A DNA stretch of 64,000 nucleotides from NCBI RefSeq assembly GCF_000165835.1, contig NC_014640.1:3596001-3660000 (forward strand), given 5' to 3'. This document shows, piece after piece, positions 3,614 through 57,799 of this stretch. The notes below the pieces were generated by a model. That model saw only the letters and a program-made list of their open reading frames with translations, was not told the origin of the DNA and did no database searches. Position 1 is the first letter of the stretch, and each line of letters begins with the position of its first letter. Made by a program: the position numbers and the translations under genes. This DNA is from Achromobacter xylosoxidans A8. Its GTDB lineage: Bacteria; Pseudomonadota; Gammaproteobacteria; Burkholderiales; Burkholderiaceae_B.

Positions 3614-4312
3614 TTACGCCAGGTCGAACACCAGGACTTCGGCATTCTTGCCGCCCGAGAGCTCCACGAGGGTCTCGTCGGTGATGGCCAGAGCATCGCC
3701 AGCCGAAAGCTCGACGCCGTTGACCGTCAGGCTGCCACGGGCCACGTGCACCCAGGCGCGGCGGCCAGCGGCCAGTTCCAGCGCGGCGGACTCGTCGCCA
3801 TCGAACAGGCCGCCGTACAGCCGCGCGTCCTGATGGATCTTCATCGAACCGTCAGCGCCATCCGGCGACACCAGGGCCTGCAACCGGCCGCGCTTCTGCT
3901 CGTCGCTGAAGCTGCGCTCTTCGTACTCCGGCGCGATGCCGGCGACGTCGGGCTCGATCCAGATCTGCAGCATGTGCGTTTCGCGGTCCGACAGCGGGTT
4001 GAACTCCGAGTGCATCACCCCGCGGCCGGCGCTCATGCGCTGCACGTTGCCGGGCTGGATGGTCGAGCCGCTGCCCATGCTGTCCTTGTGGGCGATCGCG
4101 CCGTCCAGCACATAGGTGATGATTTCCATGTCGCGGTGGCCGTGCGTGCCGAAGCCGCGGCCGGCCGCGATGCGGTCGTCATTGATCACGCGCAGGGCGC
4201 CGAAGCCCATGTGGGCCGGGTCGTAGTAGTTGGCAAAGGAAAAGGTGTGAAACGAGTCCAGCCATCCATGGTTGGCGTGACCCCGTTCAGCAGCGCGGCG
4301 AGTGGTAAGCAT
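3614..4312 (-). CDS. Pirin family protein, YhhW-like (232 residues)
   Basis: The start (AAERGHANHGWLDSFHTFSF) and the length closely match E. coli YhhW, a cupin shown to cleave quercetin. The metal site is visible in GTHGHRDMEIITYVLDGAI and the Glu-bearing MSAGRGVMHSEFN. The second cupin half is short, as in YhhW. It is transcribed divergently from the LysR gene at 4493. The 180-base gap between them carries two 17-bp palindromes, so the regulator probably controls this gene. The physiological role is not established; redox or aromatic metabolism is inferred from the family. Confidence 0.92.
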   Translation of the reverse strand: MLTTRRAAERGHANHGWLDSFHTFSFANYYDPAHMGFGALRVINDDRIAAGRGFGTHGHRDMEIITYVLDGAIAHKDSMGSGSTIQPGNVQRMSAGRGVMHSEFNPLSDRETHMLQIWIEPDVAGIAPEYEERSFSDEQKRGRLQALVSPDGADGSMKIHQDARLYGGLFDGDESAALELAAGRRAWVHVARGSLTVNGVELSAGDALAITDETLVELSGGKNAEVLVFDLA

Positions 4313-5425: not shown

Positions 5426-6934
5426 CTACTCGTCCTCGATACCCAGCTCGCGCAGCTTGCGCGTGATGGTGTTGCGGCCTATGCCCAGGCGCGAAGCCGC
5501 TTCCACGCGGCGGCCGCGACTGGCGTCCAGCGCGCTTTGCAGCAGGATTTTCTCGAACTGGCGCGTCAGCGTGGCCATGACCGCGGGCTCGCCACGCTCC
5601 AGCCGGTACTGCGCGTCGCGCACCAGGGAATCCTGCCAGTTGCGCGATGAGTCATCACCCGCCGGCGCCGCGGCCTGCACCACGGCACCCACGCCGGCCA
5701 TGGGCGCGGCGGGACGGGCAAGCGCCGGACCTGGCTGTTGCTGATGCTCCATGGCGCGGATTTCCGGCGGCAGGTCGGCGCGCTCCACCGTCTGGCCGGG
5801 CGCCATTACCGTCAGCCAGTGACAGAAGTTCTCCAACTGGCGCACGTTGCCCGGAAAATCGAACTTGGACAGCACGGCCAGGGCTTCCGGCGTCAGGCGC
5901 TTGACCGGCACCCCCAGCGCGCGGGCGCTGGCCGTCAGGAAGTGGCCGGCCAGGGCCGGGATGTCCTCGACCCGTTCGCGCAAAGGCGGCAGGCGCAGCC
6001 GGATCACATTCAGGCGATGGAACAGGTCCTCGCGGAACAGGCCCTGCTCCACGCGCTGCTCCAGCGGCTGGTGGGTAGCAGCAACGATGCGCACGTCGAC
6101 GCGCACCGGCTGCGCACCGCCGACGCGGTAGAAGCTGCCTTCGGCCAGCACGCGCAACAGGCGCGTCTGCAATTCGATCGGCATGTCGCCGATTTCGTCC
6201 AGGAACAGGGTGCCGCCGTGCGCTTCCTCGAAGCGGCCACGGCGCAGGTTGTTGGCGCCGGTGAACGCGCCGCGCTCATGGCCGAACAGCTCGGCCTCCA
6301 GCAGGTCGCGCGGGATGGCTGCCGCGTTCAGCGCCACAAAGGGGCCGCCGGCGCGCACGCCATGGCCATGTAGGGCGCGCGCCACCAGTTCCTTACCGGT
6401 GCCGGACTCGCCCGTGATCAGCACGGTGACCTTGGATTGGGCCAGCCGGCCTATCGCCCGGAACACTTCCTGCATGGCGGTGGACGAGGATTGCGTCATC
6501 ATCCAGCGTTCGTTGTTCTGCGCCGACTCCCCCTGCCCTTCAGGCCCTTCGGGCTGGGCGGACTCCTGCATGGCGCGCTGGATCAGCGCCACCGCCTCGT
6601 TCACATCGAAAGGCTTGGCCAGGTAATCAAAAGCGCCGCCCTGGAAGGCGGACACGGTGCTGTCCAGGTCCGCGAACGCAGTCATCACGATCACGGGCAG
6701 GCCGGGATGGCGTTCCTTCAGCTGGCGCAGCAGTTCCAGGCCATTGCCGCCCGGCATGCGGATATCGGAAACCAGCGCGGCTGGCGTATCCGCGGCCGGC
6801 TTGTCGCGCGACAACGCGTCCAGCACGTCGGCCGATTGGGAAAAGCTGCGGGTGGGCACCCCGGCGCGCGCCAGGGCTTTTTCCAGGACCCAGCGGATGG
6901 CCTGGTCATCGTCGACGATCCATACGGGTTTCAT
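5426..6934 (-). CDS. ntrC: Nitrogen regulation response regulator NtrC (GlnG)
   Basis: 502 residues. The receiver domain has the phosphorylation site Asp57 (VSDIRMPG) and the conserved Lys107. The sigma-54 AAA+ domain has Walker A GESGTGKE at 175-182 and GAFTGA at 222-227, the loop that contacts sigma-54. The C-terminal Fis-type helix-turn-helix (LGIGRNTITRKLRELGI) is intact. When phosphorylated by NtrB under nitrogen limitation it activates glnA and other nitrogen genes. Its start overlaps the ntrB stop by one base (shared A at 6934), so the two are translationally coupled. Confidence 0.97.
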   Translation of the reverse strand: MKPVWIVDDDQAIRWVLEKALARAGVPTRSFSQSADVLDALSRDKPAADTPAALVSDIRMPGGNGLELLRQLKERHPGLPVIVMTAFADLDSTVSAFQGGAFDYLAKPFDVNEAVALIQRAMQESAQPEGPEGQGESAQNNERWMMTQSSSTAMQEVFRAIGRLAQSKVTVLITGESGTGKELVARALHGHGVRAGGPFVALNAAAIPRDLLEAELFGHERGAFTGANNLRRGRFEEAHGGTLFLDEIGDMPIELQTRLLRVLAEGSFYRVGGAQPVRVDVRIVAATHQPLEQRVEQGLFREDLFHRLNVIRLRLPPLRERVEDIPALAGHFLTASARALGVPVKRLTPEALAVLSKFDFPGNVRQLENFCHWLTVMAPGQTVERADLPPEIRAMEHQQQPGPALARPAAPMAGVGAVVQAAAPAGDDSSRNWQDSLVRDAQYRLERGEPAVMATLTRQFEKILLQSALDASRGRRVEAASRLGIGRNTITRKLRELGIEDE

Positions 6935-44444: not shown

Positions 44445-45156
<712 letters not shown>

Positions 45157-45164
<8 letters not shown>

Positions 45165-45879
45165 GGTGCTTTCTCCCCAGATAGGCTTCGATCACGGCCG
45201 GGTTGCGCACGATCTCCTGCGGCGCGCCCTCGGCGATCATCTGGCCGAAGTTCAGCACCAGCACCCGCTGGGCCAGCCGCATGACCACCTCCAGCACGTG
45301 TTCCACGATGATGAGCGTGACGCCCGACGCATGGATGCCGCGCAGGATCTCGGCCAGGGCGATGGCCTCGGCCGGGTTGAGGCCGCCCGCCACTTCATCG
45401 AGCAGCAGCATGCGCGGCTCGGTCGCCAGCGCCCGCGCCAGCTCGACGCGCTTCTGCCCGGCCACGTTCAGCTCTGCCGCCCGCACGTCGGCGCGCTCGG
45501 CCAGCCCCACCAGCTCCAGCACGCGGGCGGATTCGCGGCGCGCGTCCTGCAGGCGCGGATGGCGCAGCAGCGCGCCGACCATGGCGTTCTCCAGCACCGT
45601 CATCTGGCCGAAGCTGCGCGGGATCTGATACGTGCGCACCAGGCCCATGGCGGCCACCTGTTCGGGACGGCGTCCTATCATGGACTGGCCATCGAAGGTC
45701 ACCGAGCCGGAGGTGGGTTCGTGATGCCCCACCAGGCCGTTGAACAGGGTGCTCTTGCCCGCGCCGTTGGGACCGATGATGGCGACGATTTCACCCGCTT
45801 CGACCGACAGCGAGATGTCCTTGTTCGCGACCAGGCCGCCGAATTGCTTGGTCAGGTTCTTAACGTCGAGCAGAGCCAC
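45157..45879 (-). CDS. livG: Branched-chain amino acid ABC transporter ATPase LivG
   Basis: 240 residues. Walker A GPNGAGKST, a LivG-type signature segment (LNVAGQKRVELARAL) and Walker B MLLLDEVAGGLNPAE are present. The signature is LNVAGQ rather than LSYGxQ, a variant seen in this family. It overlaps livM by 20 bases, indicating tight translational coupling in the five-gene liv operon. Confidence 0.92.
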
Positions 45880-46849
45880 GGCGCCTCCTCAGTGTGACCA
45901 GCCCGCCCGGCAGGAACATCGTGACCAGCAAAATGGCCAGGCCGAAAACCAGCAGGTCCAGGCCCATGCCCGAACTGCCCCACAGCACGCGCGTGCCCTC
46001 GGACAGCGGCAGCAGCACCGCCGCTCCCAACCAAGGACCGATCAGCGTACCGACTCCGCCCAGGATCGTGACCAGCACGACCTGCACCGACATCGTCAGG
46101 TTGAACATGGACTCCGGATCGATGAAGCCCACGTACATGGCGAAGAAGCCGCCCCAGACCCCGGTCATGCCCGCCGACATCACGAAGGCCAGCATCTTGT
46201 AGCGGTCGGCCGGCACGCCGAGGCTGCGCGAGGCCGCCTCGTCGCCGTTGATCGCTCGCCAGTAGAAGCCGGTCTTGGAATGCACCAGGAAGAAGGTGGC
46301 GCAGAAGGTCAGGAACGCCAGGCCCACCGCGATCCAGTAGTACGGCACCTTGCTGCGGAACAGCAGCATCCAGGCAGCGTCGCCGATCGGCGCCTCCAGG
46401 CCGACCGCGCCGCCCGCCCATTCCCAGTTGATCATCAGCAGCAGCCCGATCTGCAGCAGCGCGATGGTGGCCATCGCGAAGTAATGGCCAGACAGCCGCA
46501 GCGTGGGGCCGCCCACCAGCCAGGCCAGCGCCGCGCTGATCACCCCGCCCAGCGGAATGCCCAACAGCGGCGTGAGCTTCAGATGGTGCAGCAGCAGCAA
46601 CGTGGTGTAGCCCCCCACCCCCACGAACACGCTGTGGCCAAAGGAGATCCGTCCCAGGAAGCCGCCGACGAGGTTCCAGCACGCGCCCAGCGCGCCGAAC
46701 ATGATGGCCAGCAACAGCACCTGCAGGGTGAAGGCGTCCTTCACCACCAGCGGCACCAGGGCCATCAGGATGGCGGCCACGGCCGCCGCCGCGACCGGCC
46801 ACTTCGGTACGCCCGCATACGCGGCGTCGATTCTGTTTGTCTTGTTCAT
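45860..46849 (-). CDS. livM: Branched-chain amino acid ABC transporter permease LivM
   Basis: 329 residues with 8-10 membrane helices. The LivM pattern GGFLGRISFGHSVFVGVGGYTT and the ATPase-docking segment around GDEAASRSLGVPADRYKMLAFVMS are conserved. It pairs with LivH to form the membrane channel. It follows livH with only a single base between the genes. Confidence 0.93.
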   Translation of the reverse strand: MNKTNRIDAAYAGVPKWPVAAAAVAAILMALVPLVVKDAFTLQVLLLAIMFGALGACWNLVGGFLGRISFGHSVFVGVGGYTTLLLLHHLKLTPLLGIPLGGVISAALAWLVGGPTLRLSGHYFAMATIALLQIGLLLMINWEWAGGAVGLEAPIGDAAWMLLFRSKVPYYWIAVGLAFLTFCATFFLVHSKTGFYWRAINGDEAASRSLGVPADRYKMLAFVMSAGMTGVWGGFFAMYVGFIDPESMFNLTMSVQVVLVTILGGVGTLIGPWLGAAVLLPLSEGTRVLWGSSGMGLDLLVFGLAILLVTMFLPGGLVTLRRRRGSARR

Positions 46850-46850
46850 C

Positions 46851-47702
46851 TCACCACCGCCCGAATAGGCCGCGCGGCCGATACCAGAGAACCAGGATGA
46901 ACAGGATGAACACGCTCACCGTCTTGAGCGCAGGCGCGACGAAGTAGCCCGTCATGGCCTCGATGATCCCGATCAGAATCCCCGCGATGAAGGCGCCGGG
47001 CAACGAACCGAAGCCGCCCATGCACACCGCCACGAAAGCCAGCAGGCCGAACACCGTGCCCACCGAGGGAAACACGTAGAAGAAGGTGGTCAGCAAGGCG
47101 CCGGCCAGGCCCACCGCGGCGCTGCCCAGCATCCAGACCTGGGCGTTGACCCGGTCGGGTGAAATGCCCACCAGCGCCGCCACCTGGCGGTCTTCCGCCA
47201 CCGCCTGCAAGGCATGGCCCCAGCGCGTGCGGTACACCAGGATGAACAGCGCGACCACTACCACCAGCGCGATCAACCCCGTCACCACCTGTGGCCTGCC
47301 CAGCGAAATGCCAGCCACCGTGACGCTGCCTGACACCAGGGTGTCGGGCAGGCTGCGGTAATCGGGACTGAAGGCGATGAAGGCGACCTGGCGCAGCACC
47401 AGCCCCAGGCCGAAGGTGGCCAGGATGACCGCCATCGCCGGCCCCTTCTGCAAGCGGCGGATGATGAGCGCGTAGGTCAAAAAGCCGACGAAGGCGAGCA
47501 CGATGGCCACCAGCGGCGCCGATAGCGTGGGATCGATGTGGCCCAGCGTGTAGAGCCAATAGGCGGCATACATGCCCAGCATCAGGAATTCGCCGTGGGC
47601 GAAGTTGATGACGTCGGTGATGCCCCAGATCAGCGCCAACCCCACCGCCACCGCGGCATAGATCAGGCCGTTGAACAAGCCTGCCGAGAGAGCTTCAAAC
47701 AT
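46851..47702 (-). CDS. livH: Branched-chain amino acid ABC transporter permease LivH
   Basis: 283 residues. The start FNGLIYAAVAVGLALIWGIT and the motif VINFAHGEFLMLGMYAAYW are typical of LivH. The docking loop is seen in ALQAVAEDRQVAALVGISPDRVNAQVW. It is the first membrane gene of the liv operon, 43 bases downstream of the binding-protein gene. Confidence 0.94.
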   Translation of the reverse strand: MFEALSAGLFNGLIYAAVAVGLALIWGITDVINFAHGEFLMLGMYAAYWLYTLGHIDPTLSAPLVAIVLAFVGFLTYALIIRRLQKGPAMAVILATFGLGLVLRQVAFIAFSPDYRSLPDTLVSGSVTVAGISLGRPQVVTGLIALVVVVALFILVYRTRWGHALQAVAEDRQVAALVGISPDRVNAQVWMLGSAAVGLAGALLTTFFYVFPSVGTVFGLLAFVAVCMGGFGSLPGAFIAGILIGIIEAMTGYFVAPALKTVSVFILFILVLWYRPRGLFGRW

Positions 47703-47745
47703 GGAGTGCTCCTGCGGCGGACCCCGCGGCCCGCCGCGTCTGTGG

Positions 47746-48993
47746 TTACTTCCAGGCGAACGGCAGCGTCGGCAGGCTCTTGTCCGTGCGGTATTTTTCC
47801 GGCCAGACCGTCTGGTAGGACGAGCCCTTGAGCTCCAGGATCAGGCCCGAGCCCTTGGTGTTCTGGCCCTTGGCGTCGAATTGCACCCCGGCCCAGGGCA
47901 TCGCGACCTGCGCCTCGCCCAGGTCGGTGGCGGCCAGCGCCTTGCGGATCGCCTCGGGATCGGTCGAACCGGCCCGGTTGATCGCGTCGGCCAGCACCAG
48001 CACGCCCTGCATCGAACGGGCGTTGTTGCCGTTGAGATCCTTGCCAGTCTTGGCCTTGTACATGTCGTTGATCTTCTTCAGCCCGGCCTTGGACGCCGCC
48101 ACGTCATTGCCCCAGACGTCGCGCGTCAGCACGCCCTGGACCTGCGGCCCCACTTCCTGCACGAAGCGCGAATCGATGAAGCCCGCATCGTTGGCCAGCA
48201 GCACAGGCGGCGCGTACTTGCTTTCCCGCATGGTACGCACGAACAGCATGGCGTCCGAGGTATAGCTGGCGAAGATCGCCACGTCGGCCTTGGCGGCGGC
48301 CAGCTTCTGCACTTCCGCCGTCACCGAGGCCGAGCCCGCGCTATAGGCAATGTTGGCGACCAGTTGGCGCTTGTATTGCTTGGCGAACTTTTCAACGGCC
48401 TTGTAGGTGTTCACGCCGAAGTCGGTGTTTTCGTACACCACGGCGATCTTGGCGGTCGGCACGGCCTTCACGCCGTCCAGGAACTGCATCATGTTCTCAA
48501 CGAAGGTGTCGTCGTTGGGCGAGGTGCGGAAGAACCACTTGTAGCCGCGCTCGGTCAGGTCCGGGCTGCTGGATTCGCCATTCACATAGGGAATGCCGCG
48601 CTGCTCGGCGATGCGGCTGGCGGTCTTGGTCACGGCCGACTGGTAGGCGCCGGTCAGGGCCACCACCTTCTCCTGGTCGATCAGGCGCTGGGCGTCGGCC
48701 AGACCCACTTCGGGCTTGCCCTGCGAATCGCCGAACACCACTTCGATCTTGGCGCCGCCCAGCGCCGGCAGGCCGCTGCCCGCCGCCAGCGGTATGCCTT
48801 CCAGTTCGGGATGCGGATTGTTGATGATGTCGACCGCCAGTTCGACGGCCGCCTTGATTTCCGCCCCGGTGGAGGCCAGGGCGCCTGACAGGGGATAGAT
48901 CGCGCCGATGCGCACGGCCTGCTGGGCCTGCGCGGGCACGGCGCACATCAGCGCCAGGCTCGCGGCGACACCCGCGATGAGCTTCATCTTCAT
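47746..48993 (-). CDS. Branched-chain amino acid/amide ABC transporter substrate-binding protein (LivK type)
   Basis: 415 residues with signal peptide cut near PAQAQQ. The type I periplasmic fold is shown by VRIGAIYPLSGALASTGAEIKAAVELAVDIIN and by LTGAYQSAVTKTASRIAEQRGIPYVN. At 415 residues it is about 45 longer than LivK/LivJ, closer to the AmiC/UrtA-like amide and aromatic-acid receptors. So a leucine role should not be assumed. It leads the operon and has a good ribosome binding site. Confidence 0.92.
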   Translation of the reverse strand: MKMKLIAGVAASLALMCAVPAQAQQAVRIGAIYPLSGALASTGAEIKAAVELAVDIINNPHPELEGIPLAAGSGLPALGGAKIEVVFGDSQGKPEVGLADAQRLIDQEKVVALTGAYQSAVTKTASRIAEQRGIPYVNGESSSPDLTERGYKWFFRTSPNDDTFVENMMQFLDGVKAVPTAKIAVVYENTDFGVNTYKAVEKFAKQYKRQLVANIAYSAGSASVTAEVQKLAAAKADVAIFASYTSDAMLFVRTMRESKYAPPVLLANDAGFIDSRFVQEVGPQVQGVLTRDVWGNDVAASKAGLKKINDMYKAKTGKDLNGNNARSMQGVLVLADAINRAGSTDPEAIRKALAATDLGEAQVAMPWAGVQFDAKGQNTKGSGLILELKGSSYQTVWPEKYRTDKSLPTLPFAWK

Positions 48994-49248: not shown

Positions 49249-50055
49249 TCAGAACACCGCCATCCTGCTGTTGATGAGGTCCGTGACCAGCATGTGGCCC
49301 GGCGCGTGGGTAATGCAGAACTCCGGCCGCACAGCCGCGACCACCGACTGCGGCGTCACGCCGCAAGCCCAGAACACAGGCATTTCGCCTTCGCGTATCT
49401 CCACCGGATCACCATAGTCCGGGCGGCTGATGTCGGCAATCCCGATCAACGCGGGGTCGCCGATGTGCACCGGCGCGCCGTGGACCGAGGGAAACCGCGA
49501 GGTCACCTGGATGGCGCGGATGGCGTCCGCAGCCTTCAGGGGACGCATGGACACGACTAGCGGGCCGCCGAACACGCCCGCGGCATGGGTTGGAACATTG
49601 GTGCGGTACATCGGCACGTTGCAGCCCTGCTCGATATGACGCACGGGCAGGCCGTTATCCAGCATCGCTTCCTCGAACGAGAACGAGCAGCCGATCAGGA
49701 ACGACACCAGGTCGTCGCGCCAAAGATCCCGCACGTCGGTGGGCTCGGCCACCAGCTCGCCGTTCTGCCAGACGCGGTAGCGCGGGATGTCGCTGCGGAT
49801 ATCGATGTCCTGCCCCAATTCCGGCAAGGCGGGATCGCCCGGCTCGGACATGGCCAGCAAGGGACAGGGTTTGGGATTGCGCTGGCAGAAGTGCAGAAAG
49901 TCCGCGGCCAGCGCGCGCGGCAGGATCGCGAGGTTGGCCTGCACATGGCCCGGCGCGAGGTTCGCCGTGGGGCCGGTGAGCTTGCCGCTGCGCGCATCCA
50001 GGCGCGCCTGGCGGGCCAATTCCACGCTGGTGCGCACGGCAGGGTTCGTATGCAT
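49249..50055 (-). CDS. DUF1445 family putative hydro-lyase (D-glutamate cyclase-related)
   Basis: 268 residues from ATG at 50055, which sits six bases after a GAAGGG ribosome binding site; the ATG at 50061 overlaps that site. The family motifs [31 protein letters not shown] and [19 protein letters not shown] are present. Proteins of this family are called hydro-lyases; the vertebrate relative DGLUCY turns D-glutamate into 5-oxo-D-proline. The natural reaction here is unknown. The gene lies just downstream of a LysR gene, and the gap holds a T-N11-A element also found upstream of the TRAP operon at 56.5 kb. Confidence 0.88.
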
Positions 50056-50111
50056 GTCCATCCCTTCAATGATGATTCCGGTATGGGGACATTGCACAGG
50101 AACCGCGGACC

Positions 50112-50135
50112 AGCGTCCAATCACAAGTTGCGATA
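50112..50135 (-). promoter_or_regulatory. LysR T-N11-A element upstream of the hydro-lyase
   Basis: AGCGTCCAATC, four bases (ACAA), GTTGCGATA. On the minus strand it contains T-CGCAACTTGTG-A, a LysR-type T-N11-A box. A second copy at 56712-56735 matches at 21 of 24 positions. It lies between the LysR stop (50163) and the hydro-lyase start, in the position expected for the activator site. Confidence 0.7.
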
Positions 50136-50162
50136 GACCCCGATCAATATTCCTTATCAGGG

Positions 50163-51068
50163 TTAAGCCGGATAGCGCAGCGCCTCTTCACGCGCAATCT
50201 GCTGTGCCGCCTCGGCCACCGCGCGCGGGATCTGGCTATCCGGCCCCTGCATCCAGCAAGCGGTGTAGTGCAGCGGCGGCAAGGCCGGCGCCTTCACCTC
50301 CAGGATGCGCAATTCGCCCTGCGCCAACTCTTTGTGCAGGATGACGGGCGCGATGACGGCGGTGCCGATTGCGTCCTGCGCCATCCGCACGATGACGCTG
50401 AGCGCGGAACTGCCATACATGCGCGGCGCCTCCACGCCGGCCTGCTGCAGCAACTGGCGCACGGCGCGGTGCGGATCGGTGGTCGACGGATAGGTGATGA
50501 CGGGCCATTCGGCCAGCCGCTTCAGGGCGATCGGCTGGCGTCCGACCTTGAGCTTGGGGCTGGCCACCCAGGACAGGGGGTAGTTGCAGAGATAGAGATT
50601 CTCGATGCGGGGCTCTTCCATCGGCCCCAGCAGGAACGCCAGGTCGATCTGGCGCGAGGCCAGCTGCGTCTTCAGCACCGTGGTCGTATCCACCTGGATC
50701 TCGACCATCAGCGCCGGATAGACGTCGTGCAGATGCTCCATCAAGGTAGGCAGCCAGGTATGCACGATGGTTTCCGAGACGCCCAGCCTGAGCGTGCCGC
50801 TCATGACGCTCTTGGCGCGCGCGGCCTCCTGCATGTCGCGCCGCATCTGCAGCATGCGCTCCGCATGCGACAGCAGTTCGCGGCCCTTGCCCGTCAGCTT
50901 GATGCCGCGGGTGTCGCGGTCGAACAGACGCACGCCCAGATCCGATTCCAGCGACGCGATGCGCTGGGAAATGGCGGGCTGGGTGGCGTTGAGCTTCTCG
51001 GCCGCGGCCCGGAACCCGCCCAGGGTGGCGACCCAGAAGAAGGTCTCGATATTGCGCAGATCGATCAT
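50163..51068 (-). CDS. LysR family regulator, copy 1 of a paralogous pair
   Basis: 301 residues. The helix-turn-helix ([21 protein letters not shown]) and effector domain are complete. Its first 50 residues differ from those of the LysR at 56894-57799 at about eight positions, and the two have the same length. It lies upstream of the hydro-lyase on the same strand and downstream of the amidase gene. It likely controls the hydro-lyase and, through the shared element, possibly also the TRAP operon. Confidence 0.93.
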
Positions 51069-51145
51069 GGCGGCGGCGTCCGGCTATGCAGCCGCCATCT
51101 TAGCGCCCGGGACGGGCCGGCGGCCGCGTCCGCCCCGGCCTTGCA

Positions 51146-52495
51146 TCACTGGCCGGCGTACAGCGCTTCCACCGCCAGGCCGATGCTCAGGATGCGGCGG
51201 TCAGTACCATTGCTGCCCGCGATCATCAGCCCCACCGGCGCCGTGCCGGACGCATGGCAAGGCAGCGACAGCGCGCAGCCATCCAGGAAATTGATCAGCG
51301 TCGGATTGCGCAGGATCAGGCCGTTGGCCGCGTAGTAGGCGTCGTCCGAAGCCTGCAGGTCGGCCACTGCCGGCGCCACGATCGGCGTGGTCGGCATGAT
51401 CAGGGCGTCATAGCCCGCGATGCGGCGGTCCACCGCCGCCACCCAGGCTTCGCGCGCGTCCAGCAGGTCCAGGTAGTCGGCCGCGCTCATGTCCTTGCCG
51501 CGCATGATGCGCGACACCACGCGCGGGTCATAGCGCTTGCCGGCGCGGGCGATCAGGTCGCGGTGCCAGGCCCAGGCCTCGGCGGCGGTGAAGCCGCCCT
51601 TGGCGTTGATGGCGGCCAGTTCCGCGAATTCCGGAATCGCGATCTCTTCGACCAGCGCGCCCGCGTCCTTCAAGCGGCTGACCGCGGCCGCAAAGCTGTC
51701 GGCGACGTGCTTGTCCATGGCGTCCAGCGCCAAGGTGGTCGGGATGGCCAGGCGCAAACCGCGCAGCGCCGCCGCTTCCGGCACCGGGCCGCCGTCGCCG
51801 GACAGGATGGCATCCAGCTCGGCGCAGCAGCGCACGCTGGCGGCGATGGGACCAATGGAATCCAGGTTGGCCGACAGCGGCAGCACGCCTTCCATGGAGA
51901 CGCGCCAGGCGCTGGGCTTGAAGCCCGTCAGGCCGCAAAGCGCGGCGGGGATGCGCACCGAGCCGCCGGTGTCCGAACCGATGGCGGCTGCCGCCATGCC
52001 GTCGGCGACCGAGACGGCGGCGCCCGAGGACGAGCCGCCGGGAATGCGGCCGGTGGCGCGGTCGTAGGGATTCAGCGGCGTGCCGTAGTGGGGGTTGATG
52101 CCCAGGCCCGAATAGGCGAACTCGGTCATGTTGGTGCGGCCGATGATGACCGCGCCCGCCGCCACCAGGCGGCGCACGACTTCAGCGTCGGCGTCGGCCG
52201 CCGGCTCGCCTTCGCGCGCCACGGAACCCGCCATCGTAGTCTCGCCCTCGATGTCGAACAGGTCCTTGATGCTGATGGGCAAGCCCTCGATCGCGGAGCG
52301 GACGATGCCGGCCGCGCGCAGCGTGTCGGACGCCTGCGCCTGGGCCAGCGCCGTATCGGCGTACAAGCGGGTGTAGGCGCGCGCGCCCTCGCCCGCTACG
52401 TCCTGGGCGCGGGCCAGTGCGGCCCGCGTCAGTTCCACGGAGCTGCTGCGGCCCTCTTGCAGGGCCAGGGTCAGATCATTCAGAGTCGAAACCAT
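51146..52495 (-). CDS. Amidase (amidase signature family)
   Basis: 449 residues from ATG at 52495; the ATG at 52501 is embedded in the AGGA ribosome binding site, so the later start fits better. The Ser-cisSer-Lys triad is visible: Lys in PISIKDLFD, the cis-Ser in GGSSSGAAV and the nucleophile in GSDTGGSVRIPA. The family hydrolyses amides, ureas such as allophanate, or aryl amides to acid plus ammonia. It follows the DUF2848 gene in the same direction with an 83-base gap that holds a strong dyad. The substrate is unknown. Confidence 0.92.
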   Translation of the reverse strand: MVSTLNDLTLALQEGRSSSVELTRAALARAQDVAGEGARAYTRLYADTALAQAQASDTLRAAGIVRSAIEGLPISIKDLFDIEGETTMAGSVAREGEPAADADAEVVRRLVAAGAVIIGRTNMTEFAYSGLGINPHYGTPLNPYDRATGRIPGGSSSGAAVSVADGMAAAAIGSDTGGSVRIPAALCGLTGFKPSAWRVSMEGVLPLSANLDSIGPIAASVRCCAELDAILSGDGGPVPEAAALRGLRLAIPTTLALDAMDKHVADSFAAAVSRLKDAGALVEEIAIPEFAELAAINAKGGFTAAEAWAWHRDLIARAGKRYDPRVVSRIMRGKDMSAADYLDLLDAREAWVAAVDRRIAGYDALIMPTTPIVAPAVADLQASDDAYYAANGLILRNPTLINFLDGCALSLPCHASGTAPVGLMIAGSNGTDRRILSIGLAVEALYAGQ

Positions 52496-52531
52496 AGTCA
52501 TCCTAGTGCCGCCTTGCGGCATGAGTGCAAA

Positions 52532-52555
52532 CAGGCGCGCCCGCGGGCGCGCCTG
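52532..52555. repeat. Perfect 24-bp palindrome between the DUF2848 and amidase genes
   Basis: CAGGCGCGCCCG followed by its exact reverse complement, with no spacer. It may form a hairpin that reduces read-through from the DUF2848 gene into the amidase gene. No T-run follows. Confidence 0.5.
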
Positions 52556-52578
52556 GCGATAGGCGCCGGAGGCCGGAA

Positions 52579-53262
52579 TCAGGCCACCACGGGCAGCGTC
52601 TCGACATGATAGCGGTGACGCAGGCTGCGCTGGCGGCGCGGGTCGTGCAACTCCATCGTGAAGTCGGCCGAGGGGCGGATGCCGCCGATCGCGCCGACGG
52701 TGCCGCAGGTCATGCCGGCGCCCGCCGGCAGCACGGCCGAGCCGCCGGTGTAGCCGGCGACCAGATCCTGCGGCGTGCGCAGCGACGCCAGCGGACCCTC
52801 TTGATACAGCACTTCCACGCCGTTCTCGACGATGTAGGAACGGATCACGAGTTCGTCCCAGTAGTCGGCCACATCGGCCAGGCGCCAGGCGCTATTGGCC
52901 AGCGGCTTGACGCAGACCTGCTTGGACATCGCCACGCTATAGGTCTCCAACTTGCGGTCGGTGTGATCCGAGGCGATGCTGACGTACATCTCGCCGTCCA
53001 CCGCGAACACGAAGGTTTCCACTTCGCCCGAGGAGTCCTCGCCCAGGGCCTGCACAGTTTCCTTCTGGGTCAGCTGGTTGTCGGCGATGCGGTAGTACAG
53101 CGGCACGCTGCTGGGACGCGGCACGCCGATGGCGGCCAGTTCTTCGATGTGGTGCTCGATCGCGGCGATGTCGCGTCCGGCCCAGCCGGCGACGATCAGG
53201 GTGTCGAACTCGACTTCGACCTGGCGGGGTTGCGAATCTTCGATCTGGAATACGGCTTTCAT
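52579..53262 (-). CDS. DUF2848 family protein
   Basis: 227 residues. I recognise the family (DUF2848) but not a function. Conserved features include VEFDTLIVAGWAGRD, PLYYRIADNQLTQKE, GEVETFVFAVDGEMYVSIASDHTDRKLE and a glycine/cysteine-rich MTCGTVGAIGGI. The fold is probably related to fumarylacetoacetate hydrolase/hydratase enzymes (inference). It lies between the TRAP large permease and the amidase, 72 bases after the permease, so it is probably part of the same transcription unit. In this setting a lyase or hydrolase of a small acid is likely. Confidence 0.85.
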   Translation of the reverse strand: MKAVFQIEDSQPRQVEVEFDTLIVAGWAGRDIAAIEHHIEELAAIGVPRPSSVPLYYRIADNQLTQKETVQALGEDSSGEVETFVFAVDGEMYVSIASDHTDRKLETYSVAMSKQVCVKPLANSAWRLADVADYWDELVIRSYIVENGVEVLYQEGPLASLRTPQDLVAGYTGGSAVLPAGAGMTCGTVGAIGGIRPSADFTMELHDPRRQRSLRHRYHVETLPVVA

Positions 53263-53334
53263 ATCTGTCCTGCTGAAATAAGGGAGTGAAGGACGCGGCG
53301 GCTCGCCGCGCCCGGAATGTCTATGGAATGAAGG

Positions 53335-54618
53335 TCAGCCGAACACGCGCGGCAGCCACAGCGCCACGTCCGGCCAGAAAGCCAGCAGCGCCAGCATCAC
53401 GAACATGGCCAGCACGAACGGCAGACTGCCGACGATGACCGCGCTCATGGAACCGCTCTTGCGCAGGCTTTGCACCACGAACAGGTTCAAACCGACGGGC
53501 GGCGTGATCAGGGCGGCCTCGACCAGGATGATGATGACGATGCCCAGCCAGATGGGATCGAAACCCAGGCCGATCATGATGGGCGCGACGATGGGGATGG
53601 TCGTGATCATCATGGACAGCGTTTCCATGAAGCAGCCCAGCACCAGGTAGAAGATCACCACGATCAGCAGCATCCAGCCGGGCGACAGGCCCAGGCCCGT
53701 GATCGACTTGGTCAGTGCATCCGTCAGACCGGTAGCGGACATGACGAAGTTCAGGAAGCTGGCGGCCACCACGATCAGCATGATCATGGCCGTCGACCGC
53801 ATGGTGCCTTCCATGACCTCGCGCAGCATCGACCACGACAGGCGGCGGAACCAGGCCGCCAGGATGAAGGCGCCCAGCACGCCCAGCGCGGCCGCTTCCG
53901 TCGGCGTGGCCAGGCCGGCGTAGATGGAGCCCACCACCAGGAAGAAGATCCCCATGGGCGGCGCCAGGTGCACCAGGCTGGCGATGCGCTGGCCCCAGGT
54001 CGCCTGGATCTTCTTGCCGCCCCAGGACGGCTTGGCAACGCAGGCGATGACCACCGTCAGCATGAACAGTGCGGCCATCGCGAAGCCCGGGATGATGCCG
54101 GCCAGGTACAGCTTGGGCACCGACGAATTGGTCAGCACGCCATAGATGACCAGGTTGATCGATGGCGGGATCAGGATGCCCAGCGTACCGCCGGCAGCCA
54201 GGCTGCCCAGGAACAGCGGCTCGTTGTAGCCGTACTTGCGGATCTGCGGGATGGCCACGGTACCCACGGTCGCGGCGGTCGCCACGCTGGAGCCGGAGGT
54301 GGCCGAGAACAGCGTCGAGGCGCCGATGTTGGCGTGCATCAGCCCCCCCGGCAGCCACGACAGCCACAGGCTCATCGCGCCATACATGCGTTCGGCGAAA
54401 CCGGCGCGCAGCAGCACCTCGCCCAGCATGATGAACAGCGGAATCGCCACCAGCAGGAACTCGTTGTTGGTGCTCCAGGACACTTCGCCGATCGCGCGCG
54501 TCAGCGGCAGCATCGAGAACAGCGGGTCCAGGATCAGGCCCAGCACGCCCAGCGCCGCGCCCACCGGAATGGACAGGCCGATCAGCACCAGGAGCAGTAT
54601 CAATGCGGTGGAAATCAT
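53335..54618 (-). CDS. TRAP transporter large permease (DctM family), second system
   Basis: 427 residues with about 12 membrane helices, from the ATG at 54618 that overlaps the small-permease stop (ATGA). The conserved FSATSGSSVATAATVG, AAGGTLGILIPPSINLVIYG and EAALITPPVGLNLFVVQSLRK motifs are present. It belongs to the same family as the permease at 41683-42984 but the proteins differ throughout. It imports the substrate of this cluster. Confidence 0.95.
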   Translation of the reverse strand: MISTALILLLVLIGLSIPVGAALGVLGLILDPLFSMLPLTRAIGEVSWSTNNEFLLVAIPLFIMLGEVLLRAGFAERMYGAMSLWLSWLPGGLMHANIGASTLFSATSGSSVATAATVGTVAIPQIRKYGYNEPLFLGSLAAGGTLGILIPPSINLVIYGVLTNSSVPKLYLAGIIPGFAMAALFMLTVVIACVAKPSWGGKKIQATWGQRIASLVHLAPPMGIFFLVVGSIYAGLATPTEAAALGVLGAFILAAWFRRLSWSMLREVMEGTMRSTAMIMLIVVAASFLNFVMSATGLTDALTKSITGLGLSPGWMLLIVVIFYLVLGCFMETLSMMITTIPIVAPIMIGLGFDPIWLGIVIIILVEAALITPPVGLNLFVVQSLRKSGSMSAVIVGSLPFVLAMFVMLALLAFWPDVALWLPRVFG

Positions 54619-55235
54619 GCGGCTTCTCCCTTCACCATGCGCTCGCCGGCGGCGGCTTCCTCGTCGGCCTCTTCCTGCGCCGAACGCACGCCGCAAATGT
54701 TCTTGACGAGTTCGATGTCGCCCGTGACCAGCGCGGCGGAGGCGCGCGCCAGCATCAGCGCGACCGTGATGCACATCCAGCCCAGGCCCAGCAGCCACAG
54801 GCCCTGCGGAATCCACAAGGGCGTGGCCAGCGGCGTGTTGGCGGCGGATTTCTGCGCCCAGGAGGTCTGCACCACCTCGGACGCGTAGTAAGTCAGGTAG
54901 ACCATGAAGACCGCCAGGGCCACCATGGAGATCCAGTCCAGCACGGCCGCGATGCGCACCGGCATGTACTGGTAGACCACGTCCACGCGCACGTTGGCGC
55001 GTTGCAGCGTGGCGAACGCCAGCGCCCACGAGGTGCTGATGGCGAAAGCGTAGCTGGACAGCTCATCCGCGCCGCCCGTCGTGAAGCCCAGGAATTTGCG
55101 GGCCAGCACGTCAAACGAGATCAGCAGCACGCTGGCCACCGTCAGTGCGCCGCCGGCCCACACGGCCACGCGAGAGAAGCTCTCAGCGCGCCGCAATAGC
55201 CCGCCCAGCAGGCGAAAGTGTTCAGTTTGAGTCAT
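54615..55235 (-). CDS. TRAP transporter small permease (DctQ family), second system
   Basis: 206 residues, longer than the usual 160-190, with four membrane helices and a longer C-terminal tail (AALVTGDIELVKNICGVRSAQ, then an acidic EEADEEAAAGE stretch). It overlaps the large permease by four bases. A 191-base gap containing repeated DNA separates it from the binding protein upstream. Confidence 0.93.
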   Translation of the reverse strand: MTQTEHFRLLGGLLRRAESFSRVAVWAGGALTVASVLLISFDVLARKFLGFTTGGADELSSYAFAISTSWALAFATLQRANVRVDVVYQYMPVRIAAVLDWISMVALAVFMVYLTYYASEVVQTSWAQKSAANTPLATPLWIPQGLWLLGLGWMCITVALMLARASAALVTGDIELVKNICGVRSAQEEADEEAAAGERMVKGEAA

Positions 55236-55293
55236 GAGTAAAACCTTTGCAGGGTCGGGCGCGCAGCGCCCTCCCAGCTATGTAACGAACGAT

Positions 55294-55424
55294 CCCATAG
55301 GGACGCCACGAAGCCGGCTATGCCGATCTGCAGCGACTCCCCCCATCGGGATGCCGCGGGTCCGGCTCAGCCGGTCCGCAGGCATGCCCCCCCTGGGGGG
55401 GGAAGCGCGCAGCGCTTCGGGGGG
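55294..55424. repeat. Tandem 48-base intergenic repeat and adjoining hairpins
   Basis: Two imperfect 48-base copies (55294-55341 and 55342-55389) both begin CCCAT and share CCGGCT, CCG and CAG blocks at the same offsets. They are followed by runs of C and G (55387-55402), a short hairpin AAGCGC-GCA-GCGCTT (55403-55417) and another G run. Composite GC-rich elements of this look occur between genes in Bordetella and Achromobacter. They lie between the binding-protein and small-permease genes of the TRAP operon. They could lower expression of the membrane subunits relative to the binding protein. Confidence 0.65.
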
Positions 55425-55426
55425 AA

Positions 55427-56473
55427 CTACTTGCTGGCAGTCAGGCCCAGCGTCTTGCCGACCGTCGCGTTGAAGTCCTTCACGCACTGGGCCGAGCAGC
55501 GCGCGGCCCACTTGGGCAGCACGGCTTCCTCGGTGACCTTCTTCAGCAGCGCGCGGTCGGCGTCCGAGGGCTGGACCAGGACCATCTTGCCCTTGACCGG
55601 GAACGGGCAAGCGGCAGCGCCCGTGTTGCAGTCATAGCCTTCCTGCGTCTGGCGTGCGGCGGCGTCCCAGATGTTGTCGACCAGGGTCTTCACATTGGTC
55701 TGCAGGAACGTGCGCACCTTGGGATCCAGCTTGTCCCAGGCCTTCTGGTTCACGGCGTGGATCTGCTGATTCCAGTTGATCGGCAGCGCGACCAGGTGCG
55801 TCGACACTTCGTACCACTTGGCCGAATAACCCGACAGCGAACCCGTGATGGCGCAATCCACCACCTTGTTCTGCAGCGCGGGCACCACTTCGCCGAAGGC
55901 CATGGTCACGCTGGAACCGCCCAGCGCCTCGACGAACTCGGCGGTGGTGCGGCTGCTGGTGCGGACCTTCTTGCCCTTGATGTCCGCCAGGCTCTTGATT
56001 TCGGCGTTGCAGAACAGCACTTGCGCGGGGTAGGTGGAAATGCCCAGCAGCTTGACGTTGTTGCCTTCGCCATACAGCTTGGCGTAGACCGGCTCGAACG
56101 CGTCGGTAACGGCGCGCGCGGTCTTGACGTCAGGCGCCAGGCCGGCCAGGTCGATCGCTTCGTTGATGGGGTTGTCGCTGGCGAAGTACGCCAGGGTGGC
56201 GGTGCCGAACTCGACCACGCCCTGCGACATCAGGCGCAGCAGTTCGGGACCCTTAAGGCCCATTTCGTTGAAGCCCTTGATATCTGCCGTGACCTGCCCC
56301 TTGGACAGCTCGGGAATGGTCTTGGTCCAGAACGGCTTTTCGTAATCGTTGTAGGCGGTCAGGTTGCTCAGGCCGCCCACGACCTTCAACTGCGTCTTGG
56401 GCAGGTCCTGCGCCTGGACGGCGCCGGCCAGCAAGCCGGCGGCGACAGCGGCGAAAACTAGCGACTTCTTCAT
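55427..56473 (-). CDS. TRAP transporter substrate-binding protein (DctP family), second system
   Basis: 348 residues from ATG at 56473, eight bases after AGGAG. The signal peptide is cut near AVQAQD. DctP features include VRTSSRTTAEFVEALGGSSVTMAFGEVVPALQNKVVDCAI, with the substrate arginine in KVRTSSR. Four Cys near the C-terminus (YDCNTGAAACPF and ARCSAQCVKDF) could make two disulfides, which is uncommon. It is only distantly related to the DctP at 40208. A paralogous LysR lies upstream, with a LysR box in the gap. Confidence 0.93.
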   Translation of the reverse strand: MKKSLVFAAVAAGLLAGAVQAQDLPKTQLKVVGGLSNLTAYNDYEKPFWTKTIPELSKGQVTADIKGFNEMGLKGPELLRLMSQGVVEFGTATLAYFASDNPINEAIDLAGLAPDVKTARAVTDAFEPVYAKLYGEGNNVKLLGISTYPAQVLFCNAEIKSLADIKGKKVRTSSRTTAEFVEALGGSSVTMAFGEVVPALQNKVVDCAITGSLSGYSAKWYEVSTHLVALPINWNQQIHAVNQKAWDKLDPKVRTFLQTNVKTLVDNIWDAAARQTQEGYDCNTGAAACPFPVKGKMVLVQPSDADRALLKKVTEEAVLPKWAARCSAQCVKDFNATVGKTLGLTASK

Positions 56474-56893
56474 GGACAAAACTCCTAGCTGGCGGGATGG
56501 TATGCCGCGCGCCGGATCCCGTTATCCTGGCGGCGCGCGGTGGCAATCGGAGAGTCTGGAGATCAGCCGCGCAACGACAGGCATCGCGCCTGCGCGGCTT
56601 GGCTTGCCGCCCGGGTCTGGGAATGGGACATACGCTGGTTCATGCTTCCCCCGCTCTATGCATCCAGGCGATCGTTATTGATGTGCCGCCATTGCAGCGT
56701 CAGGGGCGCGGAGCGTCCAATCGTATGTTGCGATACGGGGGTATAAATTTTTCTTTGGTCTCGCCCGGCAGGCGCGTTGCGTTTCGCGCAGACGACGCAG
56801 TGGCGCGGCTCAGCGGGCAGCTAGCCACGCCGGGCCGCAGCCCTGCCAAATGGCTGATTGCGCCGCCCTCGCGACGCCTGCTGGGGTAAACAC
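56474..56893 (-). promoter_or_regulatory. Long control region between the second LysR and the TRAP operon
   Basis: 420 bases without a credible gene. It contains the LysR element at 56712-56735 and, just beyond it, an AT-rich stretch (GTATAAATTTTTC at about 56741-56753). The rest is ordinary GC-rich sequence with no strong hairpin. The element lies about 240 bases from the dctP-like start, so a long leader or a distal activator site is implied. Confidence 0.5.
56712..56735 (-). promoter_or_regulatory. LysR T-N11-A element upstream of the second TRAP operon
   Basis: AGCGTCCAATC, four bases (GTAT), GTTGCGATA. On the minus strand it reads T-CGCAACATACG-A, a T-N11-A box. Outside the four central bases it is identical to the element at 50112-50135, and an AT-rich stretch follows both. 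Conservation of non-coding sequence 6.6 kb apart, each time below a paralogous LysR gene, argues for a shared operator. Confidence 0.72.
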
Positions 56894-57799
56894 CTAGATA
56901 GGCACCCCGTCCGCTGCCTGCTCGGCCACCTTCTGGGCCATCTGAGCGATGACGCGCACCGCGTGGCTATCCGGCCCCTGGACCCAGGTCGCCGTGAAAT
57001 TCAGTTCCGGCAAGGGATCGGCCTGCACGCACAGGATGCGCAGTTCGCCGCGGGCCAATTCCTTGCCAAGGAAAACAGGCGCGATCACGCTGGTGCCGAT
57101 TGCATCCTGGGTCATGCGCACCATCATCGACATCGACGCGCTACCGTACATGCGCGGCGCGGTCACCCCCGCACGCGTCAGCATGTCGCGCACCACGCGG
57201 TACGGCGCGCTGTTGGAGGGATAGGTGATGATGGGCAGCTTGCCGATCTGCTCCAATGTCAACGGTTCGGGTCCAAGGTCCAGCACCGGGCTCGCGACCC
57301 AGGCCAGCGGATAGGTGCAGAGCGGCAGATTTTCGACCCGCGCCTCCAGCACAGGTCCCATCAGGAAGGCCAGATCGATCTGGCGCGACATCAGGTGCGA
57401 ACGCAACACATGGGTCGTGTCGACCTCGATCTCCAGCACCAGCGCCGGATAATTCGAATGGATCAGTTCGATCAGCGTGGGCAGCCAGGTCTGCACGATG
57501 GTCTCGGCCACGCCGATGCGCACCGTGCCGCTCATGACGTTCTGCTCGCGCGCGGCCTCGAACATGTCGCGCCGCACCTGCAGCATGCGTTCGGCGTGCG
57601 ACAGCAGCTCGTGCCCCTTGGCGGTCAGCTTCACGCCGCGCGCCTCGCGCTCGAACAGGCGCACGCCCAGGTCGGCCTCGAGCGAGGCAATGCGCTGCGA
57701 TACCGCAGGCTGCGTGGTGTTGAGCTTGTCCGACGCGGCGCGAAAGCTGCCCAGCGTGGCTACCCAGAAAAAAGTTTCGATATTGCGTAGTTCGATCAT
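56894..57799 (-). CDS. LysR family regulator, copy 2 of a paralogous pair
   Basis: 301 residues from ATG at 57799 ([19 protein letters not shown]); a longer frame lacks support. The helix-turn-helix is SFRAASDKLNTTQPAVSQRI. It matches the LysR at 50163-51068 along its whole length, including [33 protein letters not shown] and RMTQDAIGTSVIAPV. The nearly identical recognition helices explain the shared DNA element. The effector pocket regions differ more, so the two may respond to different compounds. Confidence 0.94.
   Translation of the reverse strand: MIELRNIETFFWVATLGSFRAASDKLNTTQPAVSQRIASLEADLGVRLFEREARGVKLTAKGHELLSHAERMLQVRRDMFEAAREQNVMSGTVRIGVAETIVQTWLPTLIELIHSNYPALVLEIEVDTTHVLRSHLMSRQIDLAFLMGPVLEARVENLPLCTYPLAWVASPVLDLGPEPLTLEQIGKLPIITYPSNSAPYRVVRDMLTRAGVTAPRMYGSASMSMMVRMTQDAIGTSVIAPVFLGKELARGELRILCVQADPLPELNFTATWVQGPDSHAVRVIAQMAQKVAEQAADGVPI

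Follow-up and report, generated by a model that had tools for sequence, protein, structure and literature searches.

According to the accessible part of an account of promoters of LysR-type transcriptional regulators (LTTRs), such a promoter has a recognition site near -65 with the motif T-N11-A and an activation site at -35, and the regulator is often, though not obligatorily, divergent from its target, with shared autoregulation (PMC8407307). For Acinetobacter baylyi, the available portion of another paper describes BenM and CatM as paralogous LTTRs with overlapping targets, whose site 1 reads ATAC-N7-GTAT and contains T-N11-A (PMC6628147). Our subject is a 24-base element that occurs twice in a 64-kb stretch of Achromobacter xylosoxidans A8 (contig NC_014640.1, positions 3,596,001 to 3,660,000), here called the window, each time behind one of two paralogous LysR genes, lysR1 and lysR2. 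We consider it highly probable that each of these regulator genes carries, attached to its own 3' end, a LysR-type activator promoter with a copy of the element at its core, and that this cassette was duplicated and the target units divided between the two regulators.

Anatomy of the predicted promoter

With up to 3 mismatches allowed, the pattern AGCGTCCAATC-N4-GTTGCGATA matches the window just twice, at 50112-50135 and at 56712-56735, against an expected count of 0.00 in 100 shuffles, and the two copies are identical in 21 of 24 letters. Both copies contain T-N11-A on the minus strand, within ATC-N9-GAT, and each lies downstream of one LysR gene and before a different unit; the LysR proteins, each of 301 aa, share 66% identity. 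In all of this the earlier note, which had described the repeat, its LysR motif and its position behind two LysR genes of equal length, was correct. Along the minus strand the order is lysR2, element A, dctP, dctQ, dctM, a DUF2848 gene, an amidase gene, lysR1, element B, a hydro-lyase gene and a LIV-type ABC transporter.

The common block exceeds the 24-mer, with TGCAAT standing 18 nt past TTGGAC in both copies. Read on the minus strand, the composite promoter comprises an AT-rich anchor, then ATC-N9-GAT running into TTGGAC (-35), 18 nt of spacer and TGCAAT (-10). The last T of ATC-N9-GAT is the first base of TTGGAC in both copies, so that the activation site shows the overlap with the -35 hexamer looked for in LTTR promoters. 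The anchor block in relatives reads (G)ATAAG-N5-CTTAT(C) and ends 8 nt ahead of ATC; if +1 is assumed to lie 7 nt past the -10, the centers would fall near -66 for the anchor and near -43 for the second site. For the comparisons below, A sites are those of lysR2 and its kin, B sites those of lysR1 and its kin, and C sites those of most relatives outside Achromobacter and Bordetella. The activation site has T-N11-A in 111 of 111 sites, although the site-picking pattern favored these bases, and the anchor has it in 34/34 B sites, 26/26 C sites and 10/51 A sites; in the window, the copy B anchor retains the motif and the copy A anchor does not.

By this anatomy the 24-mer is the inner half of a larger predicted composite promoter. 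The earlier note took it for a LysR-type element, which stands as far as an LTTR-type operator tied to both LysR genes is concerned, but the 24-mer spans no more than the activation half and the -35. The note also placed AT-rich sequence after each element; such sequence is present at both copies, and on the transcribed strand it lies upstream, as the anchor part of the same promoter. In the mechanism that we propose, a LysR tetramer would be anchored near -66 by the AT-rich site and, once inducer is present, would also hold ATC-N9-GAT at about -43. LysR would then be placed against RNA polymerase on TTGGAC-18-TGCAAT, and the operon right behind would be switched on.

Regulator and site across genomes

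With one mismatch allowed, the short pattern is found in 42 of the 43 genomes of the genus (reversed control, 0), and the one genome without it is a 57% complete assembly. A 20-base pattern of lower stringency, with 2 mismatches allowed, proved useless (204 matches; reversed control, 96), and a composite-site profile, built from sequence alone on 58 sites, was substituted for it. In the 7.36-Mb genome this profile has two strong matches, at 60.4 and 52.8 bits. The next match has 14.2 bits (E 0.19), and at the sensitivity of the profile no wider regulon was found in the genome and no strong site before either lysR gene. Regulator and target are co-directional, and the genome lacks a further strong site that could serve as the shared autoregulatory site of a divergent pair. 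A dispersed repeat, the alternative that the earlier note itself had raised, was considered and is ruled out, as the genome has only two strong sites and the site tracks the LysR family across genomes.

We then take the 151 genomes of the family, counting a LysR homologue at E <=1e-60 and a site at E <=0.01, and calling a site strong at E <1e-7. A LysR homologue is present in 58 of the 151 genomes and a composite site in 57 of the 151, strong in 56 of these; strong sites occur in 56/58 LysR-bearing genomes versus 0/93 LysR-less genomes, the latter with one weak match (G126, E 0.001). G126 is among four weak extra matches of 18-21 bits in the family, the others being in G056, G092 and G093. As to the two LysR-bearing genomes without a strong site, the LysR of G069 is a 43% outgroup homologue, and G131 has an orphan lysR2 (locus L149) followed by what looks by eye like a transposase gene, with the target genes and the operator absent from the fetched 14 kb. 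A strong site was found in 7/7 LysR-bearing genomes outside the model (G018, G025, G033, G062, G078, G089 and G155), most of which have close kin among the sources of the model's sites. A survey of 399 genomes of the order, own family included and with stricter filters that lose some weak matches, gave no strong site (E <1e-10) outside the family; 10 genomes of other families have weak matches only (E 1e-4 to 0.01, 17-23 bits), which we take as chance.

Two observations concern loci at the margin of this distribution. Bordetella genomosp. 5 (L254:4043-4110) has a decayed lysR2 site of 21.9 bits, with TTGGCT for TTGGAC and the TRAP genes present. In L181, L182 and L183, outgroup LysR genes (40-43% identity) are divergent to hydro-lyase-dctPQM and lack a downstream site, which is the usual LTTR layout.

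A scan of named genomes located LysR2 relatives of 69-77% identity in Alphaproteobacteria, at twelve loci (L247, L249-L251, L253, L255, L256, L258-L260, L282 and L283), none of which was used for the model. Their record names are Bosea, Boseaceae, Bradyrhizobium, Faunimonas, Chelatococcus, Aquabacter and Rhizobiales; the class was checked for Chelatococcus, Faunimonas, Aquabacter and Bosea (L258), and the remaining records (Boseaceae, Bradyrhizobium and Rhizobiales) presumably belong to it as well. The composite site stands 5-21 nt past the lysR stop at 12/12 of these loci, with 23-33 bits. The distance from site to dctP is about 1.4 kb in 8 of the 11 loci with dctP on the fetched piece, and in L249, L255 and L283 this gap is occupied by an open frame of some 400 aa that is creatinase/M24-peptidase-like by eye. 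The occurrence of these relatives together with the site suggests that the cassette probably crossed classes by transfer.

The site follows LysR in the family (strong sites in 56/58 versus 0/93) and at all twelve Alphaproteobacterial loci, and therefore regulator and operator behave as one cassette. With the operator lying against the lysR stop codon, or over it in many relatives, the two would be duplicated and moved as a unit. The stop overlaps the 17-bp anchor in 18/26 C sites, 13/34 lysR1 sites (12 of them by two edge bases), 1/51 lysR2 sites and 12/12 Alphaproteobacterial sites (L247 by a single base). The window has no such overlap, the gap being 4 nt for lysR1 and 135 nt for lysR2. Where 1.3-1.9 kb of other genes part lysR from the target (by eye, an inverted DD-peptidase-like gene in L139 and an AraC-type gene in L145, L147 and L148), the site adjoins the target, and it is therefore the promoter of the target and not the tail of the lysR gene. 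What is unusual is the placement at the 3' end of the regulator's own gene and the joint travel of the pair. An operator in this position may explain how LysR genes carry promoters to new operons. It is even conceivable, though we think it improbable, that LysR bound across its own stop codon turns on the operon behind it and at the same time halts run-on transcription from lysR; if true, such a cassette would keep the transcription of regulator and target apart, provide feedback at the 3' end and capture new operons via duplication or transfer. A literature search that left most subscription papers outside its reach found no precedent for an operator over the stop codon of its own regulator.

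Probable duplication and divergence of the two operators

In group C, which comprises most relatives outside Achromobacter and Bordetella, one LysR gene stands before hydro-lyase, dctPQM, DUF2848 and amidase genes, some of these relatives having no hydro-lyase in that position. In the LysR tree, the Achromobacter/Bordetella group falls into clade A (before dctP) and clade B (before hydro-lyase). Some genera retain only A and others only B, and A and B occur in tandem in 25 of the 42 genus genomes examined. The hydro-lyase gene directly follows the amidase gene, in the LysR2 unit, in 16/16 assessable genus genomes without lysR1; in the seventeenth (L121), the contig ends before that position. 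In the regions fetched (8-18 kb), the LIV genes adjoin lysR1 in 24/25 lysR1-bearing genus genomes, the exception being L122, and they are found in 0/17 lysR1-less genus genomes, 9/9 clade-B loci of other genera and 0/40 other loci. By this linkage they are probably part of the lysR1 unit. In a hydro-lyase tree, made for the question whether lysR1 and hydro-lyase arrived together, the genus copies from the two contexts are intermingled. The cassette would have become two in an ancestor of the Achromobacter/Bordetella group, with LysR2 retaining the TRAP-DUF2848-amidase operon and LysR1 taking hydro-lyase, probably with the LIV-type ABC transporter. The promoter-proximal half would have stayed much alike, while the anchor half and a few helix-turn-helix (HTH) residues diverged.

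Several loci depart from these layouts. Bordetella petrii has two strong sites at each of two loci (L241:929-999 and 4201-4269; L248:948-1018 and 5484-5552), where a LysR of 60-63% identity stands before hydro-lyase and a dctP, followed by a LysR of 82-83% before another dctP. G007 (L100:5206-10417) has no dctPQM between lysR2 and DUF2848, the operator standing directly before DUF2848 and amidase. L113:4727-6658 has a tandem duplication of hydro-lyase, with two identical copies plus an amidase fragment. Past hydro-lyase and in the opposite direction, a distant TRAP system (dctM 37-40%, dctP about 30% where seen) is present in 15/16 assessable lysR1-less genus genomes, and also in L122, which alone among the lysR1 genomes has no LIV genes; the loci that show it are L096, L106, L108, L109, L111, L112, L118, L120, L122, L124 and L126-L131.

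To compare the two operators within the genus we used 41 A and 25 B sites, with L108 dropped, and give identities in the order within A, within B and between copies. These are 0.95, 0.90 and 0.46 for the anchor; 0.95, 0.95 and 0.81 for the activation site; 1.00, 0.91 and 0.91 for the -35; 0.72, 0.65 and 0.39 for the -35/-10 spacer; and 1.00 throughout for the -10. The operator block of copy A has an identity of 0.89 versus 0.48-0.64 in its flanks. Since related sequences are not independent, these figures show constraint and not probability. The pattern is one of a common promoter-proximal half and an anchor half split into two versions. At column 11, the activation site has C in 51/51 A sites and T in 34/34 B sites; L254, an A-type locus fetched later, has T there in its decayed site. 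The regulators have diverged along with their sites: residues 18, 28 and 56 differ without overlap between clade A (n=52) and clade B (n=34), residue 28 being T in 52/52 A and A in 34/34 B proteins. Both clades have near-identical versions of the recognition helix, TQPA(V/I)SQRIASLE, and of the wing, RG(V/I)KLT, the majority helices differing only by V/I at residue 33, and some cross-talk may occur for this reason.

The earlier note had predicted one shared operator and cross-talk between the two regulators, which in its full form would mean that either LysR binds and drives either unit. The prediction holds for the activation half and the -35/-10, which are 81-100% alike between copies, and full cross-talk would also accord with the near-identical helices, with the finding that hydro-lyase lies in either unit depending on the species, so that both units may answer one pathway, and with BenM and CatM, presented in the available portion of the source as paralogous LTTRs with overlapping targets (PMC6628147). 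The same recognition sequence is not present at both copies across species, however: the anchors are 46% alike between copies as against 95% and 90% within them, and with the fixed HTH differences and the C/T split at column 11 this makes full cross-talk rather unlikely. We would expect two operators with a common core, between which some cross-talk is possible and partial insulation likelier. That the likeness is a mere leftover of a recent duplication, in sequence under no constraint, would fit with the paralogy of the lysR genes and the apparent duplication of the cassette, but we regard it as exceedingly improbable, given that both LysR clades span several genera, that the likeness between copies is 39% for the spacer but 100% for TGCAAT and 91% for the -35, and that the same block recurs in Alphaproteobacteria. 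Very little more can be said for a plain housekeeping promoter with a site for another factor conserved upstream of the -35. TTGGAC-18-TGCAAT alone could be a promoter, but the two dyad-like sites at LTTR spacing, the presence of the site behind the LysR gene in 56/58 genomes and 12/12 Alphaproteobacterial loci, and its absence at the orphan lysR2 of G131, which has no target genes nearby, all argue against this explanation.

Our preferred explanation, the duplicated cassette of regulator and activator promoter, has points against it as well. The -35 and -10 match sigma-70 weakly and a simple promoter scan calls neither, TTAGAC replaces TTGGAC in 14/34 B sites, and the T of T-N11-A is missing from the copy A anchor in 41/41 genus sites counted, the window included, which makes the role of that anchor less sure. 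The upstream flank of copy B (0.87-0.89) is as conserved as its operator (0.86); the conservation of copy B is less telling because this flank is the coding end of lysR1. Support for the deeper splits in the LysR tree is low (SH-aLRT 55-77), and clade A is joined by the g26 loci, whose layout is that of a single operon. Finally, 255 nt part hydro-lyase and the LIV genes, whose place in the lysR1 transcript is deduced.

Genes, function and known systems

The features of the two units are listed in Table 1. Both LysR proteins have the domains of an LTTR, with PF00126 and PF03466 above cut-off in about 300 aa.

Table 1. Predicted promoter parts and genes of the two units (window positions)
Feature	Position	Strand	Basis or remark
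lysR2, LTTR clade A, before TRAP unit	56894..57799	-	Pfam HTH_1, LysR_substrate; tree
Copy A anchor (RBS), predicted, CCAAAGAAAAATTTATA	56742..56758	-	left arm degenerate relative to ATAAG-N5-CTTAT; T of T-N11-A missing
Copy A activation site (ABS), predicted, ATCGCAACATACGAT = ATC-N9-GAT	56720..56734	-	contains T-N11-A
Copy A -35, TTGGAC	56715..56720	-	
Copy A -10, TGCAAT	56691..56696	-	18-nt spacer; putative +1 near 56684
dctP, TRAP solute-binding protein, first gene of unit A	55427..56473	-	PF03480
dctQ, small TRAP membrane subunit	54615..55235	-	named by operon position, conserved order
dctM, large TRAP membrane subunit	53335..54618	-	named by operon position, conserved order
DUF2848 protein	52579..53262	-	PF11010
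Amidase, PRK07056 subfamily	51146..52495	-	family search
lysR1, LTTR clade B	50163..51068	-	Pfam; 66% identity to lysR2; tree
Copy B anchor (RBS), predicted, GATAAGGAATATTGATC	50142..50158	-	4 nt past lysR1 stop
Copy B activation site (ABS), predicted, ATCGCAACTTGTGAT = ATC-N9-GAT	50120..50134	-	contains T-N11-A
Copy B -35, TTGGAC	50115..50120	-	
Copy B -10, TGCAAT	50091..50096	-	putative +1 near 50084
Putative hydro-lyase / D-glutamate cyclase family, first gene of unit B	49249..50055	-	PF07286; NF003969 above cut-off
LIV-type (branched-chain-amino-acid) ABC transporter, five genes, probably unit B	44445..48993	-	linkage to lysR1

DctP is weakly similar to solved structures, and its three best matches (57-70 bits, partial coverage) include 2pfz and 2pfy, which we take to be the two B. 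pertussis DctP proteins covered by a review. The accessible part of that review reports these two proteins as crystallized with pyroglutamic acid (PMC5812351). As a likeness to the B. pertussis system, the cluster in the window also holds a D-glutamate cyclase family gene. With the DctP matches, this gene and the amidase in the same predicted regulon, it is a fair guess that the substrate and a common inducer are a glutamate-type lactam or amide. DUF2848 has no significant match in the PDB (best E 0.33), and with the DctP matches weak we claim no substrate. The literature search found no paper on DUF2848 and none on such a cluster in Achromobacter. The predicted regulon joins three poorly known families, namely DUF2848, the hydro-lyase of the D-glutamate cyclase family and the TRAP system, and the twin regulators and operators can be traced through dozens of species, so that how interference between duplicated regulators ends becomes testable by residue and by base.

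The nod box of NodD has the form ATC-N9-GAT. The activation site has exactly this form in both window copies, but no nod genes are among the genes identified, and the ATC is not kept in distant relatives (ATN). Like BenM and CatM, as portrayed in the available part of the source (PMC6628147), the pair in the window consists of paralogous LTTRs whose operators resemble each other and whose catabolic targets are linked; unlike them, it has split anchors, and one promoter per regulator was found. Measured against the accessible part of the general account (PMC8407307), the locus agrees with LTTR promoters in its predicted anchor at about -66, in the T-N11-A of copy B and most relatives, in an overall length of 50-60 bp and in a second site that runs into the -35, and it differs in that regulator and target are co-directional and the site lies behind the regulator gene. 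The predicted layout is that of a textbook LTTR promoter, yet it stands directly behind lysR rather than between divergent genes.

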